Positions 8,601-61,108 of a DNA stretch of 64,000 nucleotides are shown piece after piece (the first letter of the stretch is position 1; every line of letters begins with the position of its first letter). The stretch comes from Antedon mediterranea. Lineage: Eukaryota; Echinodermata; Crinoidea; Comatulida; Antedonidae. Location of the stretch: contig NC_092680.1 in assembly GCF_964355755.1 (NCBI RefSeq), forward strand, positions 501,001 to 565,000, given 5' to 3'. The position numbers were made by a program, and so were the translations under genes. The notes under the pieces are model-generated. The model had not been told where the DNA came from. It ran no database searches and was given only the letters and a program-made list of their open reading frames with translations.

Positions 8601-11600
8601 GGAATTTAGGATGTATTGTATTTGTTAAGTATTTATTAACATTTCTACCCAATTATCAGTACTATATTTATAGTTTGTTCTATCTACACTATCAAACTAG
8701 TTTGACAAAAAAAAAGTGTGATGTGCCCAAATATGGTGGTGATATGCCTAAATATGTCACATAAAGAACTTTAGTTTAACTCAGTATACACATTAAGAAA
8801 CAAACCTCATAAAGTTTTTCTCTGTACTCGTTAACTGATAATTGTACATCATCATCTAATGGAGGGATGACATCATAGTCTAAGGATGTTTCCTCTTCTG
8901 GATTGTGAAACCTGAAAAGTGGAGAGAACAACAATGTGAAATAGAAAAATCCATATAACGTTTTTATGAATCTTTGTATTACCACAATAAAATTAATTTC
9001 CCCGTAGAGATTGGGATAATAAAGTTTTATAGAAATGAATTAAAAATGGTAATAATGTTCTATTGTTAAAAAATCTATTTTTGATAAGCCTTTATCACCA
9101 TTATCAAGTATTTTACTGAGTACATACTTGTGCGACTTGAGAATATACATACATACCTAGCAACATAAGGGTGTTCTAGAGCCTGCTCTGCAGTTAGTCT
9201 CTTGTCTGGGTTGAAGAGAAGAAGCTTAGATAGAAGGTCTAAAGCATCTGCTGGTGCCTCTGGTAAAACATCTTCAAATCTCAATTTATGTCTACAAAAA
9301 ATATGGTTAAATGTTATGCAAATAATAAATGTGTATTAGTAGACAAACAAGTACCACAGCATGGACAAGATTAGTGAAAGACAGGAACAACTGGCACCAG
9401 TTGGTAGAGGTATTTGCCCGGCATTGGGACGATATGGGCTGAAGAAAGAAGTAGAGTAGTATAGTAAAATGAATAAAAAATTGTAATGAGTTGAAGGAAC
9501 AGTACATCTTTGACAGACCTACTGTATTGTGGATGTTAAAGGCAAGTCATAAAAAAAGTATGGCTCTCGGGATATATACATTATACCTGGTGCACAGTGA
9601 GTGGCGCAACACACAGGGTTAAGCACTCCTAAGGGGCCCTCCAAAGCTGGGTAGTTGTGAGTGGCGCAACACACAGGGTTAAGCACTCCTAAGGGGCCAT
9701 CCAAAGCTGGGTAGTTGTGAGTGGCGCAACACACAGGGTTAAGCACTCCTAAGGGGCCCTCCAAAGCTGGGTAGTTGTGAGTGGCGCAACACACAGGGTT
9801 AAGCACTCCTAAGGGGCCATCCAAAGCTGGGTAGTTGTGAGTGGCGCAACACACAGGGTTAAGCACTCCTAAGGGGCCCTCCAAAGCTGGGTAGTTGTGA
9901 GTGGCGCAACACACAAGGTTAAGCACTCCTAAGGGGCCCTCCAAAGCTGGGTAGTTGTGAGTGGCGCAACACACAGGGTTAAGCACTCCTAAGGGGCCAT
10001 CCAAAGCTGGGTAGTTGTGAGTGGCGCAACACACAGGGTTAAGCACTCCTAAGGGGCCCTCCAAAGCTGGGTAGTTGTGAGTGGCGCAACACACAGGGTT
10101 AAGCACTCCTAAGGGGCCATCCAAAGCTGGGTAGTTGTGAGTGGCGCAACACACAGGGTTAAGCACTCCTAAGGGGCCCTCCAAAGCTGGGTAGTTGTGA
10201 GTGGCGCAACACACAAGGTTAAGCACTCCTAAGGGGCCCTCCAAAGCTGGGTAGTTGTGAGTGGCGCAACACACAGGGTTAAGCACTCCTAAGGGGCCCT
10301 CCAAAGCTGGGTAGTTGTGAGTGGCGCAACACACAGGGTTAAGCACTCCTAAGGGGCCATCCAAAGCTGGGTAGTTGTGAGTGGCGCAACACACAGGGTT
10401 AAGCACTCCTAAGGGGCCCTCCAAAGCTGGGTAGTTGTGAGTGGCGCAACACACAGGGTTAAGCACTCCTAAGGGGCCCTCCAAAGCTGGGTAGTTGTGA
10501 GTGGCGCAACACACAGGGTTAAGCACTCCTAAGGGGCCCTCCAAAGCTGGGTAGTTGTGAGTGGCGCAACACACAGGGTTAAGCACTCCTAAGGGGCCCT
10601 CCAAAGCTGGGTAGTTGTGAGTGGCGCAACACACAGGGTTAAGCACTCCTAAGGGGCCCCCCAAAGCTGGGTAGTTGTGAGTGGCGCAACACACAGGGTT
10701 AAGCACTCCTAAGGGGCCCTCCAAAGCTGGGTAGTTGTGAGTGGCGCAACACACAGGGTTAAGCACTCCTAAGGGGCCCTCCAAAGCTGGGTAGTTGTGA
10801 GTGGCGCAACACACAGGGTTAAGCACTCCTAAGGGGCCCCCCAAAGCTGGGTAGTTGTGAGTGGCGCAACACACAGGGTTAAGCACTCCTAAGGGGCCCT
10901 CCAAAGCTGGGTAGTTGTGAGTGGCGCAACACACAGGGTTAAGCACTCCTAAGGGGCCCTCCAAAGCTGGGTAGTTGTGAGTGGCGCAACACACAGGGTT
11001 AAGCACTCCTAAGGGGCCATCCAAAGCTGGGTAGTTGTGAGTGGCGCAACACACAGGGTTAAGCACTCCTAAGGGGCCCTCCAAAGCTGGGTAGTTGTGA
11101 GTGGCGCAACACACAGGGTTAAGCACTCCTAAGGGGCCCTCCAAAGCTGGGTAGTTGTGAGTGGCGCAACACACAGGGTTAAGCACTCCTAAGGGGCCCT
11201 CCAAAGCTGGGTAGTTGTGAGTGGCGCAACACACAGGGTTAAGCACTCCTAAGGGGCCCTCCAAAGCTGGGTAGTTGTGAGTGGCGCAACACACAGGGTT
11301 AAGCACTCCTAAGGGGCCCTCCAAAGCTGGGTAGTTGTGAGTGGCGCAACACACAGGGTTAAGCACTCCTAAGGGGCCATCCAAAGCTGGGTAGTTGTGA
11401 GTGGCGCAACACACAGGGTTAAGCACTCCTAAGGGGCCCTCCAAAGCTGGGTAGTTGTGAGTGGCGCAACACACAGGGTTAAGCACTCCTAAGGGGCCCT
11501 CCAAAGCTGGGTAGTTGTGAGTGGCGCAACACACAGGGTTAAGCACTCCTAAGGGGCCATCCAAAGCTGGGTAGTTGTGAGTGGCGCAACACACAGGGTT

Positions 11601-14600
11601 AAGCACTCCTAAGGGGCCCTCCAAAGCTGGGTAGTTGCATTGGGGCTGTTCATGTTCTGGGGCTCCTGGTTAGCCATTATACCACTGTGCACACTACAGG
11701 TTGAATTTCAATGATTTGACCTGGCACCTTACCTTACACAAGCTTTGTCTAATACTGTTGCTCCATAGTTTGACTGAATTGAATCAACATCTTGCTTTGT
11801 TGGTCTTTCTATTAAACTCATGATTCTTTCTATTTGATTAAATGTAGATGTACCAGGAAAAAGGGGCTTTCCCTTTAATAGTTCAGCAAGAATACAGCCT
11901 ACACTCCACATGTCCACTCCTTTAGTATATCTACAAAATACAAACAATAGTAATACTGTATCAACTACTTCACTTCTTATACTCGATTCAGTTGGAAATT
12001 TGTTTTTAGGCTTAGCTATAAAATCAAAGTAGAGTTTCACAGTTGTCAGACCATAGCTCTGGTGGTAGAAAAAGTCGGATAAGTACTGGTGGTCTAGTGT
12101 ACACATCTGGCTTGTGTACACTTGAGAGACCCCAGTGCATCTTTTAGAAAAGTAGTGGGTTACCCTGGTATACTGGCCCCTGAATTGACTAATACTGTAC
12201 CTTTTTGAAGCCAGAAGAATTTCTGGAGCACGATACCATCTAGTTGCTACATATTCAGTAAGGGCTGGGTTGGCTTGATCAAAATCATCATCTAATTGAG
12301 TTATTGAGCGGGCTAGACCAAAATCAGCTAGTTTTAAAAAACACTCTGAATCCAGTAGTATATTTGACGGCTGCAAAAAAAATTTTTACTGATTATAAAT
12401 GATGCAATCTTTATCATTGTAGAAAAAACTCACAAACCTTGCTAATCAATTTTTTGTTTAAAATCTCGAATCACGATTTAATCCACACCATTTAAAGAGT
12501 GCATGGCCTCTTCAACAAATCTGGATTGTCTAAACACATACATAGGATGTAAATCCCATTTTGTGGATTTTGAGGGCTTACCCTGGTACCATACAAATGA
12601 CTAGCACTTTTTGTTTATGTGTTTTTTCTACCTTTATGATATCAAAATCAATCAAATCAAGTATATTACCTTCTTATCTCTGTGTATAACATTTCCAGAG
12701 TGCAAGTATTTTGTTGCCTTTAAAAGTTGGTACATAATGTACCTTTTGTGTACATCCTTTAGAATTCCACCTTTCTTTATCACTGCATGTAAGTCAGTAT
12801 CTAAAAACAAAAGATTTTAGATATGAAAAATTAAAATGTTAATAATTACTGCATGGTTTTCTTCATTTCATTATAGTATATTAGCAATAACTATTAATTA
12901 ATTAAAATTTGATAAACCAGTACCCCATGAAAAATGTGTTTAAACATAGGATAACCTCTCTGATATATTTTAAGGGAGTGGGGCGGGGGGTATCATTCCC
13001 ATCTTCATATACAAAAGAGGATACCATATAATCAGAATTTGTTTAGGGAATTTGTAATTGAATGAATTAGCTGGCTCTCGAAAGGAGAATGCTTTTCTTT
13101 TTTTCATCTCCTCAGAGATGCAAGCATTGTTATGAATAAAATTTATTTTATAAACTTGCAATGCCAAACTCTATTAACATATTGTACTTATACTTACCCA
13201 TAAATTCAAATACTAGGTAAATATCTTTGTCATTCTCTGCTCTCATAACATTCAATAACTTCACAATATTTTCATGTCCACTAAATTCCTAGTTAAAAAG
13301 ATTTCCATAAGTCTTAATCTTAATATCATTGTATGACAGCCTGTCTGTTTCTAGTGAGTCAGATATTGTTGACTGTATAATTAGTAACCATACAGTATGC
13401 TAACCTCTGTCTACACTATAAAACCATATATGGACATGATGATGTCATATCACTACCATATTTGGGAACATCACACTTTTTTTGTCAAACTAGTTTGATA
13501 GTGTAGACAGAGCTTTAGACGATTGTAAACAATGTGAGATAGAAAAGTTTAATTTGTAGCAGTACAGAAAAAAAAACTTAAATAAATATATAATAATATA
13601 AGAAAAATTACATACCTGAAGAAACATTATTTCTCTGAAAGTTCGCTGAAAAAGTTCATTAAAAAAATTATAAAAACCACTAAAAAAACATGTTTCTGTA
13701 CATTACAGTTTAAAAAAAAATTAATGACAATGAAATGAATATTTTCTTATGAAAATTTCTTATATTTTTCAAATGAGGTTCATTTTAAAATTAGATATGC
13801 ACACATACAGTACATACTTTGTTATACATGACTGATCAAACAGGGCTTTAAAACTGGTAATTGATTTACGACATTTATACCGGAAGGGAAAATTCAATTT
13901 TGCATGCATTTGGGGCTTTGATTCTATTGTATTGTAGTTCCCGATAACTAGTATTCTTACAATAACATACCTGAGCGTCAGTCTGATTTCTAAAGGCATC
14001 AAATATTTTCTTTAAGGCAACAACTTCTCCCGTTTTCCTATCTATCGCTTTCCATACAATTCCATATGCCTTGACAAATATAATTAAGATTTAATATCAA
14101 AATCAAAATACACAATTTCTTTATTACTCGATGGCATTTATTTTATTGCTTTGAATTATTTGTTTGGTGAGTGAATTGCAAGTTATAAATTTAAGCTTTA
14201 TAAACAGCTCAGCTGAAATAACTGGCAGCCATCAATATGATCAGACACCACAGAAAATTTAATATTAATTTTATAGGAATTATTGATAAATATTGTCTGC
14301 ACTATCTAGGCCTATGCCTAGCCTAGGTAGGCCTACATCAATTCTTTCTATTATAAATTGAGTCAATAAAACCAATTTTAAAAACTATTAGGCCTAGTAG
14401 GTAGGCTAGGCCTGGCTTTCTATATAGGTCTAGTAGTAGAGGGAGGGGCCTAGTGTGACAGGGACAGGGCCTACTAGGCCTAGGCCTAGTTAGTAGAGGC
14501 TAGGCCTACTAGCCTTAAAAATATATTTTAAAAGAACAATGTAAAAGATAAAGACCCGAACATATAACTTACTCCTTTTCCTAGTCTTTTTTTAATTTCA

Positions 14601-19807: not shown

Positions 19808-22800
19808 ATGGCTTCGATAGGATTCAAAGCAGGTTTACTTCTTGTTGTATTGTTAAAGATCTGCTCTGGAAGAAACCTTCTGCAACATGAATGGGATCCC
19901 AAGGGATACGTGATGTACTGTCCGTGTATGGGTAAGTTAATTGTGGGTGATTGTAGCTATATCTGCTAGGTTAGGTTTGCGTACGAGGAATCTTGTAATT
20001 TTCTCGATTCCTCCTGTTGTTATATTGACTCTATTTATGGTGTTGTGGAATCGATTCTACGCTAAATTATTCATAAACAATTACATTCCTTATGTACGTT
20101 TCAATGTAAGAACATTTAAGGAAATTGGTTTTTGGAATTTAGAGAAAATAGTAGTAAGAATAGAGAATGTATTTCTTGAGGCGAACCTTTGCCTTACTCA
20201 GCAAGGTCGTGGAAATTAGGGGAGCAATGCCATTGGCCAAAAGTAAAGTGGCGCGCACCAGTTTCGTTATGGTACATCGTCGTCAAACTGGCATAAGTTC
20301 CGATGTGGCGACAATTGTAGTTATGGTTTTGGTGGCACACTTAAGGTCTGTTTACACTATCAAACTTTATGTGCAAAACAATGTGATGTGCTCATAATAG
20401 ACGTGATGTGCCCATTGTATGGACATGATGATGTCATATCATACCATTACGCATATCACTACCATATTAGGGCACATCACACTTTTTTTGTCAAACTTAT
20501 AGTACTACTTTTATTTATTGAGTTATATATATTTATATTTGTTATCAATGTTATTCATCTGATGATTGAATGTAAATTATAGTATATACAGTGATTAGTA
20601 TTAGTAGTATGTAATGTTTGTATACTTATATGTCACATGTTACATATTGTAATGTTTTAGGGCAATTCTCTGGGCAGACGGAACAGTTCCTGGGAGCACT
20701 ATCATTTGCTAAAGGAATTAACAGAGTTCTTGTTATTCCTAACTATATAAATTATCCATGTGGAAGGAAACGTCACGCCCATCCAGGAGCCATCAGCCTT
20801 CCCGTTTCTCGACAGCACAATGTAAGAATCACATGGTGATGTTAGATTACACTATAGTACCTCCTTTGAACTGTTCTACTTGCCGTCACCAAGCCTTATT
20901 GAATCTGGTCAAATATTTATTTTTCTATAAAACAAATTTTCAACAAAATTATTCATTTGTTTCGTTTCAGGACGCTTTGGTAGCCAAGTAGACCAGTTCT
21001 TAGGAGCATGCCATTTTGCTAAAACAATCGGTCGAGTTCTAGTCATCCCGAAATTCATAGAATACCAGCATGAAAAAGGTCATGATGTACCAAATGTAAG
21101 GCATACAATTAATAATTCAAATATGCTATGATTACTGTATATAAACACAAACATGTTGGTTGTGCTTGATAGTTGTGCCAATTGATTTTCTATTGCTAAA
21201 ACATTGTTTTGAAAACTGTCTATCAATGAAAATTAAGGTAATGTTAGAATTAACAAATAATACCATAGACATTAGTTGTTGTTTAATATATAATATAATC
21301 TCAAATATAACACATAACCTCAAATCACCGTAGTGTTATTATGTTGAATAGCTTCCTTCTAACACGTGTACAGTAGCTAAGTACATTCCAAATTTTCCTT
21401 TGTAAATCCTTTTTATTCATAACAAAAAAAAAGGATTGTTAAAAGGATTGGTTTAAAGCAAGGACGTGTTACAATGCTATTGGTTAGTTAGAATCTGTCA
21501 TGCATCACTACTCCTATTCTTCTGGTAACCATGTTCTTTTTTTTAATGCAGGCATGAATTGGCCTATTGTTATAAAAATAATAACAACTCCTCATCTAAC
21601 AAAACCTATTTAATTAACTGAGTAAACCCCCTAGCTTGTTGATTTTCTGTCTTGAATACTGTACACAGTAACTATATATTAACTACAGTATAATACATTT
21701 TTTCATTTTATTATTTCCATATAATATAAAACAACAATTTTCTAAAAATCACACCCAAATATATTTTATTTTCTAGTACTTAGTGCAAAATTGATGAATA
21801 ATTATCAAGATAGTTTGCAAATAAGAATTTAAAATAATTTGATACTTTTCTTTTAAGATATATAAATCTTTTGATGATTATTTCAATCTTGATAAAGTGA
21901 AGGAATATTATCCTGATGTGATTTTAATGGATGAATTTATGGATGCATTCGGAGATAAAGAATGGTCTGAAGGAAAGCGTTTAGCTTACTGCTCAGAGAA
22001 GGCAGCAGAATTCAATGAAGGCGCTTGTCCAAGAGTAAGTTCCACAAAGTAAATTCAATAAAACATTATTATCACAAACTCCAGGGAAATTCATTTGGTT
22101 CTGGTACAAAGTATTAAATTAATAGATTTGTTTCTTTAGAAGTTTTGATCTTTCAATGAAAAATTAAACACGGGTATCAGGATCAGAATGGTGTTGTTTG
22201 ATCATGGAGCAATCTAATTATTACTCCATGGTTTGATGGAAACTGTTTATAAGTGATGTCATCGCTAATAATTTACTATGAAATGCAATAAAATATAGAC
22301 CAACAGTAAATAAACCCAAGTTATTATTCCAAGTTATTATTCCAAGTTATTATTCCAAGTTATTATTCCAAGTTATTATTCCAAGTTATTATTATTAAGT
22401 TATTATTCTATTTTATTATTATTAAGTTATTATTCTATTTTATTATTATTAAGTTATTATTCTATTTTATAGAAAGGAAACCCATTCTCTGAATTCTGGG
22501 ATCATTTTGACATAAAATTTGATGGTTCAAAGGAATGGTCAGGAGATTTTCACTTCAATGTTGAATATGACCAATGGAGACAGAACTGGGAAGAAGAGTA
22601 AGTATTGTTTGTTCAATACTGGAAAAAATGTCACCATGGCAGTTCTGGTATTTTGAGCTTTCTATCAAATCATGGACATGATGATGTCATATCACTACCA
22701 TATATGGGCACATCACACTTTTTTCATCAAAAATAAGTTTTACTGTAGTATCAAAATCTCTCTCTCTAGTACATGCGTCTACTTCCTCTAAAAAACTCAT

Positions 22801-24290
22801 TTCCTACGAGAACATCTTAAATTCTTGCAGTAGAAATAAAGTCAATCCTCTTTTTTTTAGTTATAAACCTAAAGATCACCCAGTGCTTGCTTTCATGAGT
22901 GCCCCGGCCATCAGTCCCCTAACAGAGGTAGCTGGCAAACTACAAGAGTATCTGGAATGGCAACCAACTATAGTGGAGAAGTGTGACAAGATCATTGAAG
23001 AGAATCTGATAAGACCATATATCGGTATTCATCTTAGGAATGGAGCTGATTGGGTAAGAGGTTTTTTTAAACTTTTAATATTAATAACACAATACCATAC
23101 ACATTTGCAACATAATAGTAGGATAAATTATAATAAGTTGTTAAAAAAAACGAAGTTTAACAAATGTTGTTAAAATTAAATATTTACATACTGTGCAAGA
23201 TTGATTCAGGAATATGTACCTTCCAAACAATAAATATTGCATGGTAATAATATAAATATCACTGTGGAAACATATCCTATGCAGAATTGTTTTTTGGTGT
23301 GAGGCGATTTGTTAAAAGGGCCATAGAAATGATAAAAATAAATAAATAAAAGAAATAAAAAGCATGCCTAATAATCCTCTTTTGTACACATTTTAAGGAG
23401 CTATAATATTTATAATATTTGGACCTTTTCTAAATAAAAACAAATTATAATTTGTGAAGGTTCGCACTTGTCAATTAGCCGAGGAAGGAGAATATCAACA
23501 ACTGATGTCATCCAGACAGTGTACCGGTGTTACACATGACGACACCATCAAAATTGATCACAAAATGTGCATCCAATCAGAGGAGCAAGTGATTAAGGAT
23601 CTTGCACACGTTGTTAGGAAGGAACAACCTAAATCAATATTTGTTGCTACAGATCATGAATCTATGGTTGAAGAACTACAAGAGGCCTTCCCAGAGGTTA
23701 GTAACATGAACTTGTCCTATGCTATTAAGTCTATAGATCTTTAGCCACTTTTCGTTTCATGACTCGTTTATCGATTAAAAAGATCATTCTATGCATGCTC
23801 ATATGTTTCTGGTGCATTGTAAAAAATGAAAGGTCGCTATTCCTGTATCCTATCCTGCGTATTTGCGCAGATCAACAATCTATGGTGTTATATTTCAAAT
23901 AATGTATATATTCTAAAAAAATGTTGATAATTAAGGGAGAATCAATAGAATAATATAGGTTTGGAAAAGAAATAATAATAAACTTTTATAAAGTGCAATT
24001 TACTGAGGTCTTGCAGCGCTAAAAGACCAACAAGGGGAGGTTTTAGAAGTGACTTGTATTCTTGAAAAGAACTGTAATTGAATTTTAATTTTTTCTTTTG
24101 AATATAGATCAAAATATTTCATCTTGATCCAGAGAAACCAGAGCATGATATGTACATCCTTGGCCAGTCTGACCATTTTGTTGGAAACTGCGTCTCAGCT
24201 TTCTCGCACTATGTAAGACGTGAACGTGATGTCTTCAGCAAACCTAATACCTACTTTGGTTGGAAGAGTAATTACCATGATGAGCTTTAG
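19808..24290 (+). CDS. POFUT1: POFUT1, GDP-fucose protein O-fucosyltransferase 1, complete, alternative exon 2
   Basis: ER-lumenal GT65 enzyme that transfers fucose from GDP-fucose to Ser/Thr in EGF repeats of Notch and related proteins. Exons: 19808-19931, then 20661-20821 (2A) or 20971-21095 (2B), 21858-22034, 22473-22597, 22861-23053, 23460-23696, 24108-24290. Isoform B is 387 aa, about the usual family length; isoform A is 399 aa. The start at 19808 gives a signal peptide (GLLLVVLLKICSG); an in-frame ATG at 19718 would bury it. Motifs: WDPKGYVMYCPCMG (29-42), exon 2 G[RQ]F..Q..QFLGA..FAK, HPVLAF, RPYIGIHLRNGADW with the catalytic-type Arg (243 in B), FVATDHES, LGQSDHFVGNCVSAF, and RRERD. 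The C terminus HDEL is an ER-retrieval signal. The exon 6 acceptor (TTTGTGAAG) has a poor pyrimidine tract. Confidence 0.97.
20341..20498. repeat. MITE family 1, copy H (POFUT1 intron 1)
   Basis: TTAAGGTCTGTTTACACTAT at the left, a partly duplicated GATGTGC module, and GGGCACATCACACTTTTTTT GTCAAACT at the right. It lies 160 bp upstream of exon 2A. Confidence 0.8.
20661..20821 (+). CDS. POFUT1: POFUT1 alternative exon 2A (divergent copy)
   Basis: 161-nt exon between TTTTAG and GTAAGA. It reads GQFSGQTEQFLGALSFAKGI, then NRVLVIPNYINY and a basic tail (GRKRHAHPGAISLPVSRQHN) 12 residues longer than in 2B. Compared with the family motif GRFGNQ it lacks both the Arg (Gln here) and the Asn (Gly here). 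It enters in phase 1 and leaves in phase 0, exactly like 2B, so either exon can be joined to exons 1 and 3. Confidence 0.85.
20971..21095 (+). CDS. POFUT1: POFUT1 alternative exon 2B (canonical copy)
   Basis: 125-nt exon between TTTCAG and GTAAGG. It reads GRFGSQVDQFLGACHFAKTI, then GRVLVIPKFIEYQHEKGHD. It keeps the Arg of GRFGNQ and has Ser in place of Asn (residue 46). Length and sequence fit the family norm, so this is probably the enzymatically standard form. Confidence 0.92.
22316..22472 (+). repeat. AT-rich tandem repeats forming the POFUT1 exon 4 acceptor region
   Basis: About six copies of the 13-mer CCAAGTTATTATT pass into about three copies of a 24-bp unit AAGTTATTATTCTATTTTAT T. 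The last unit ends in TTCTATTTTATAG, the acceptor of exon 4 (22473). Confidence 0.9.
22660..22733. repeat. MITE family 1, copy I (fragment, POFUT1 intron 4)
   Basis: TTCTATCAAATCATGGACAT through GATGATGTCATATCACTACC to GGGCACATCACAC. Terminal repeats are largely lost. Confidence 0.65.

Positions 24291-34005: not shown

Positions 34006-61108
<27,103 letters not shown>

Follow-up and report, generated by a model that had tools for sequence, protein, structure and literature searches.

A tandem pair of frame-incompatible exons in a diverged POFUT1-type gene of Antedon mediterranea

The gene and its surroundings

We observed that the window (the whole 64-kb stretch of DNA that was analysed) contains a POFUT1-type gene of seven exons on the + strand, running from exon 1 at 19808 to the end of exon 7 at 24290. 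POFUT1 places O-fucose on EGF repeats, and Notch signalling requires that modification. Exon 1 (19808..19931, 124 nt) carries the start codon and a predicted signal peptide, reads ...YCPCMG and ends in phase 1 (ATG G/gtaagt). It is followed by two versions of the next exon. Exon 2A (20661..20821, 161 nt; acceptor ttttag, donor AAT/gtaagaa) encodes GQFSGQTEQFLGALSFAKGINRVLVIPNYINYPCGRKRHAHPGAISLPVSRQHN, and exon 2B (20971..21095, 125 nt; acceptor tttcag, donor AAT/gtaagg) encodes GRFGSQVDQFLGACHFAKTIGRVLVIPKFIEYQHEKGHDVPN. An intron of 149 nt separates them, and the 3' end of 2A extends 36 nt (12 codons) past the equivalent point of 2B. The remaining gene is intact, with exon 3 (21858..22034), exon 4 (22473..22597), exon 5 (22861..23053, encoding HLRNGADW), exon 6 (23460..23696) and exon 7 (24108..24290), all on the + strand. 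Exon 7 ends in ...YHDEL and a stop, which places HDEL at the C-terminal end as a tail of the ER-retrieval type. Self-tblastn found no further tandem exon copies in the gene. A MITE-like segment is common to intron 1 (20419-20495, ~170 nt upstream of 2A) and intron 4 (22672-22731).

The neighbouring genes lie on the - strand, and include a MAP kinase of the ERK7/8 type (11729-12385) and an EYA (eyes absent) gene (34355-34660). A minisatellite at 9597-11637 (34 copies of a 60-bp unit, 98% matches) adjoins the MAPK15/ERK7-like kinase exons and is open throughout on the - strand (716 aa). An imperfect 17/51-bp tandem array at 42081-42741 is open in all three - strand frames.

A family search with gene models showed that the genome carries two other complete POFUT1-type genes, at C4:33645500-33655400 (near 33.65 Mb) and C11:20356500-20364500 (near 20.36 Mb), and a POFUT2 gene on C2. 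Sequence C2 also holds a truncated copy of 18S rDNA (C2:30756200-30758300) that continues as unrelated AT-rich DNA, and further 18S 5' ends are dispersed across it. The C4 paralogue is 49% identical to the human protein and ends in KTEL, and the C11 paralogue is 45% identical and has no ER tail. The window protein shows 42% identity with the human one, and 37% and 34% with the other two POFUT1-type proteins, and is by identity the most divergent of the three from human.

The earlier note had called the gene POFUT1. The family assignment stands, as the match to the human chain (5ux6) is full-length (E 1.5e-93) and the whole O-FucT domain (PF10250) scored 196.1 bits in the 2B form and 183.5 bits in the 2A form (cut-off 31.5). 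However, the gene is only one of three of its type, and the C4 protein is closer to human POFUT1 (356 bits, versus 317 for the window protein). Since the window gene is the most divergent of the three, it need not be the gene of ordinary Notch O-fucosylation. To our knowledge, three POFUT1-type genes in a single animal are unusual.

The intron after exon 1 has the same position and phase in the window gene and both paralogues. In the C4 and C11 genes exon 2 is single, carries GRFGNQ and is surrounded by the same intron phases; no doubled exon 2 was found in either.

Frame, homology and age of the two exon copies

Script translation gave an entry phase of 1 and an exit phase of 0 for both 2A and 2B, and the splice forms 1-2A-3 and 1-2B-3 were both open. 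When 2A was joined to 2B, the product read ...QHN DALVAK and stopped six codons into 2B, while the form skipping both copies (1-3) ended early, at ...MDI and a stop. Both stops matched exactly those given in the earlier note, and its claim of adjacent homologous exons of like phase was borne out by direct reading and by script. The frame thus permits one copy at a time, as had been proposed, since double inclusion and double skipping both end in a stop.

The splice sites of 2A had also been described as good, and its donor and acceptor indeed score like those of accepted exons. The donor reached 7.6 bits, against 7.2 bits for that of 2B, and was equalled by 7 of the 195 intronic GTs of the gene. 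The acceptor, at 9.3 bits, exceeded every one of the gene's 139 intronic AGs.

Frame-incompatible exons are one of the usual ways of exclusivity in the survey of Hatje et al. 2017 (PMC5740500), a class in which tandem homologous exons of the same phase shift the frame on joint inclusion and so lead to decay. The window pair consists of adjacent homologous exons of identical phases, joint inclusion or skipping of which breaks the frame, and is alike in phase and frame; it differs in that the two lengths are 36 nt apart. In the open literature (subscription papers were outside the scope) we found no POFUT1 gene described as having duplicated or mutually exclusive exons, in agreement with the earlier note. 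The pair would therefore be of a known kind, and its presence in a POFUT1-type gene appears, judging by the open literature, to be a new case.

We further estimated the relationship of the two copies. They share 20 of 32 residues in an ungapped block and match each other at E ~5e-10 (tblastn, within the window). With 2A as query against the whole 354-Mb genome, 2B was recovered at E=8.6e-6, far above chance, which upholds a tandem duplication of the GRFGNQ exon. The only genome-wide matches at E<=10 were 2A, 2B and exon 2 of the two paralogues. We also considered whether 2A belongs to a genomic repeat or derives from a transposon; this was ruled out, as its other matches in the genome are exon 2 of POFUT1-type genes alone. 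No related sequences were found among viral contigs, a collection without eukaryote genomes.

Over the 32 codons, pS between 2A and 2B was 0.80 (saturated) and pN was 0.29, with a bootstrap support of 0.9995 for pN<pS. These values support long-term selection that kept both copies coding. Of the 32 codons, 22 were identical at position 1, 23 at position 2 and 12 at position 3, an excess at positions 1+2 relative to 3 with p 0.002. Compared with the C4 paralogue, 2A gave 17, 25 and 12 of 31 (p 0.007 for 1+2 over 3), and the same trend was seen weakly with the C11 paralogue (p 0.10). When neutral copies were simulated at the observed third-position divergence, 0 of 4000 kept an open frame and 19 identical residues. 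The flanking introns showed no similarity by blastn beyond short chance words. Saturated synonymous sites with few protein changes and dissimilar introns indicate that the duplication is old and that both copies were kept coding. In this one genome, 2A thus appears to have been under selection as a protein for most of its life.

Taken together, we regard the window gene, on sequence grounds, as a diverged POFUT1 paralogue whose tandem exon pair is genuine, old and incompatible in frame. The anatomy, the phases, the stops in both wrong combinations and the long-term codon constraint form the established part of this account. The reading that we favour, at a probability of about 0.77, is that of a diverged POFUT1-type gene with an old tandem-duplicated loop exon, the copies of which were kept coding and are used singly, giving two ER-resident proteins.

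The best surviving alternative, although an unlikely one, is that 2A is a dead or dying old duplicate that is no longer spliced in, with the 2B form as the only product. It would account for the replacement of R40, G42 and N43 of the nucleotide-sugar motif in 2A (residues are numbered as in the C. elegans enzyme, 3zy2, by alignment) and for a tail that cannot be aligned. This tail is 12 residues longer than in 2B and had no counterpart in human or C. elegans POFUT1 by alignment; it could reflect a wrongly placed donor or a loss of constraint. However, the pattern of identity across codon positions in 2A, its open frame, its intact splice sites and the saturation of its synonymous divergence need long selection, and any loss of use would be recent. 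Human, C. elegans and the two paralogues all have the same residue at 16 reference positions; 2A keeps 11 of these, having lost A53 and T61 besides the three in the motif, and 2B keeps 12 (lost N43, L52, A53 and T61). As Leu52 is kept in 2A and lost in 2B, 2A is not merely a decaying copy of 2B.

We consider it very unlikely that 2A is mainly regulatory, its joining to 2B lowering the output of the gene through the early stop, with the 2A protein irrelevant. The stop six codons into 2B would serve such a role, and unproductive splicing is a known class (PMC12322889, PMC6547761). A poison exon, however, requires no conserved coding frame, and 2A has kept both its frame and its homologous residues. 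Least probable is a two-loop protein made by an internal donor of 2A (at 20760 or 20772): both GTs fit the frame and give exon lengths divisible by three, but by eye they are poor and weaker (CAT/GTGGAA, AAC/GTCACG), and the joined product would carry one structural element twice.

A candidate RNA element in the middle intron

The intron that separates 2A from 2B (149 nt) contains an element, CTCCTTTGAACTGTTCTACTTG (20861..20882, + strand), that is complementary to both copies at an equivalent offset in each and is a candidate docking site with modest support. It was noticed post hoc, without prior prediction. Its target in 2B (20985..21006, +) is 19/22 complementary, with a duplex of -27.8 kcal/mol. 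In the 2A target (20679..20697, +; duplex -21.7 kcal/mol) the core of the element, GAACAGTTC, is matched exactly. Complementarity to 2B of at least 18/22 occurred at a single place in the 64-kb window, namely in this intron.

When the element was compared with shuffled introns, the values obtained were 0.007 for 2B and 0.053 for 2A, and recoding with synonymous codons gave 0.003 and 0.037, respectively. Real adjacent sequence of the window gave a value of about 0.08. In the model ensemble, the 2B helix alone formed. Near exon 2 of the paralogues, no antisense element above 15/22 was seen.

The element may pair with either 2A or 2B and hide that copy, leaving the other exon free, a tentative proposal that we hold to be possible but on balance doubtful. 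In the 2B duplex the looped-out site would be the 2B acceptor, and in the 2A duplex it would be the 2A donor, so that each duplex would hide one exon. In docking-selector systems (insect Dscam exon 6, 14-3-3 zeta) one element matches a site of each copy, with one pairing at once, an arrangement that the candidate element may resemble, and a model for their origin by exon duplication has been presented (Ivanov and Pervouchine 2018, PMC6071210). Unlike those systems, the element of the window sits between the exons and has exonic targets, and its pairing would hide an exon, whereas docking-selector pairing selects one.

Active-site residues of the two predicted forms

In the C. elegans enzyme, only N43, R240 and W245 were described as critical for activity; N43A lowers GDP-fucose hydrolysis 25-fold, and R40A weakens GDP binding about nine-fold (from 0.35 to 3.1 uM) and slightly reduces activity (PMC3180450). 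We observed that R240, D244 and W245 (in exon 5), D309 and F357 are kept in the window gene. The catalytic Asn at position 43, however, is absent from both forms (2B has Ser there, 2A has Gly), so that the trio of N43, R240 and W245 expected for standard catalysis is incomplete. Position 40 is Gln in the 2A form only, and position 199 (F in C. elegans) is Ser in both. The loop beside GDP-fucose reads GQFSGQ in 2A and GRFGSQ in 2B, the latter being nearer the standard motif, and the extra tail of 2A lengthens the segment after the motif.

The earlier note had suggested that one of the forms might be catalytically altered. This would apply to 2A, from which R40 and N43 are lost, but not to 2A alone. 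Since 2B is itself altered (N43 to Ser, F199 to Ser), the contrast is not one of normal versus altered; we infer an alteration in each form, the greater one in 2A, and the consequence may be slower transfer, a use of other acceptors or a folding role. Compared with POFUT1 of human (5ux6) and C. elegans (3zy2), the window gene is alike in its full-length match, signal peptide, HLR.G.DW motif and ER tail, and is unlike them in these replacements, in the longer 2A segment and in coexisting with two other POFUT1-type genes. Each of the three genes departs at a different functional site: the C4 paralogue has Phe at W245, the C11 paralogue has Val at F357, and the window copy is changed at N43.

Under the favoured reading of two singly used coding copies, two forms of the enzyme are probably produced. 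Long ago, the exon that encodes the first nucleotide-sugar loop would have undergone tandem duplication, and 2A and 2B would have been retained as coding exons that are spliced in singly. The resulting two ER-resident proteins would differ in the loop adjacent to GDP-fucose and would have segments of unequal length after it. Both isoforms would be expected to be expressed, with wrong combinations cleared by nonsense-mediated decay, and the two forms may not be alike in how they bind the donor, in rate or in the partners they choose. A bolder proposal, which we consider improbable, is that an RNA switch in the middle intron chooses the active-site exon, giving forms with lowered or changed O-fucosyl transfer and a cell-specific modification of Notch-type receptors. 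The altered forms might possibly act as a folding helper or as an EGF-repeat decoy.

At 435 nt, the exon pair is a compact case in which constraints of frame and phase stand alongside a possible competition between RNA pairings. An animal having three genes of the POFUT1 type, with a GDP-fucose loop that can be exchanged in one of them, would be a natural experiment on the limits of active-site change, and would also bear on non-catalytic roles of O-fucosyltransferases.
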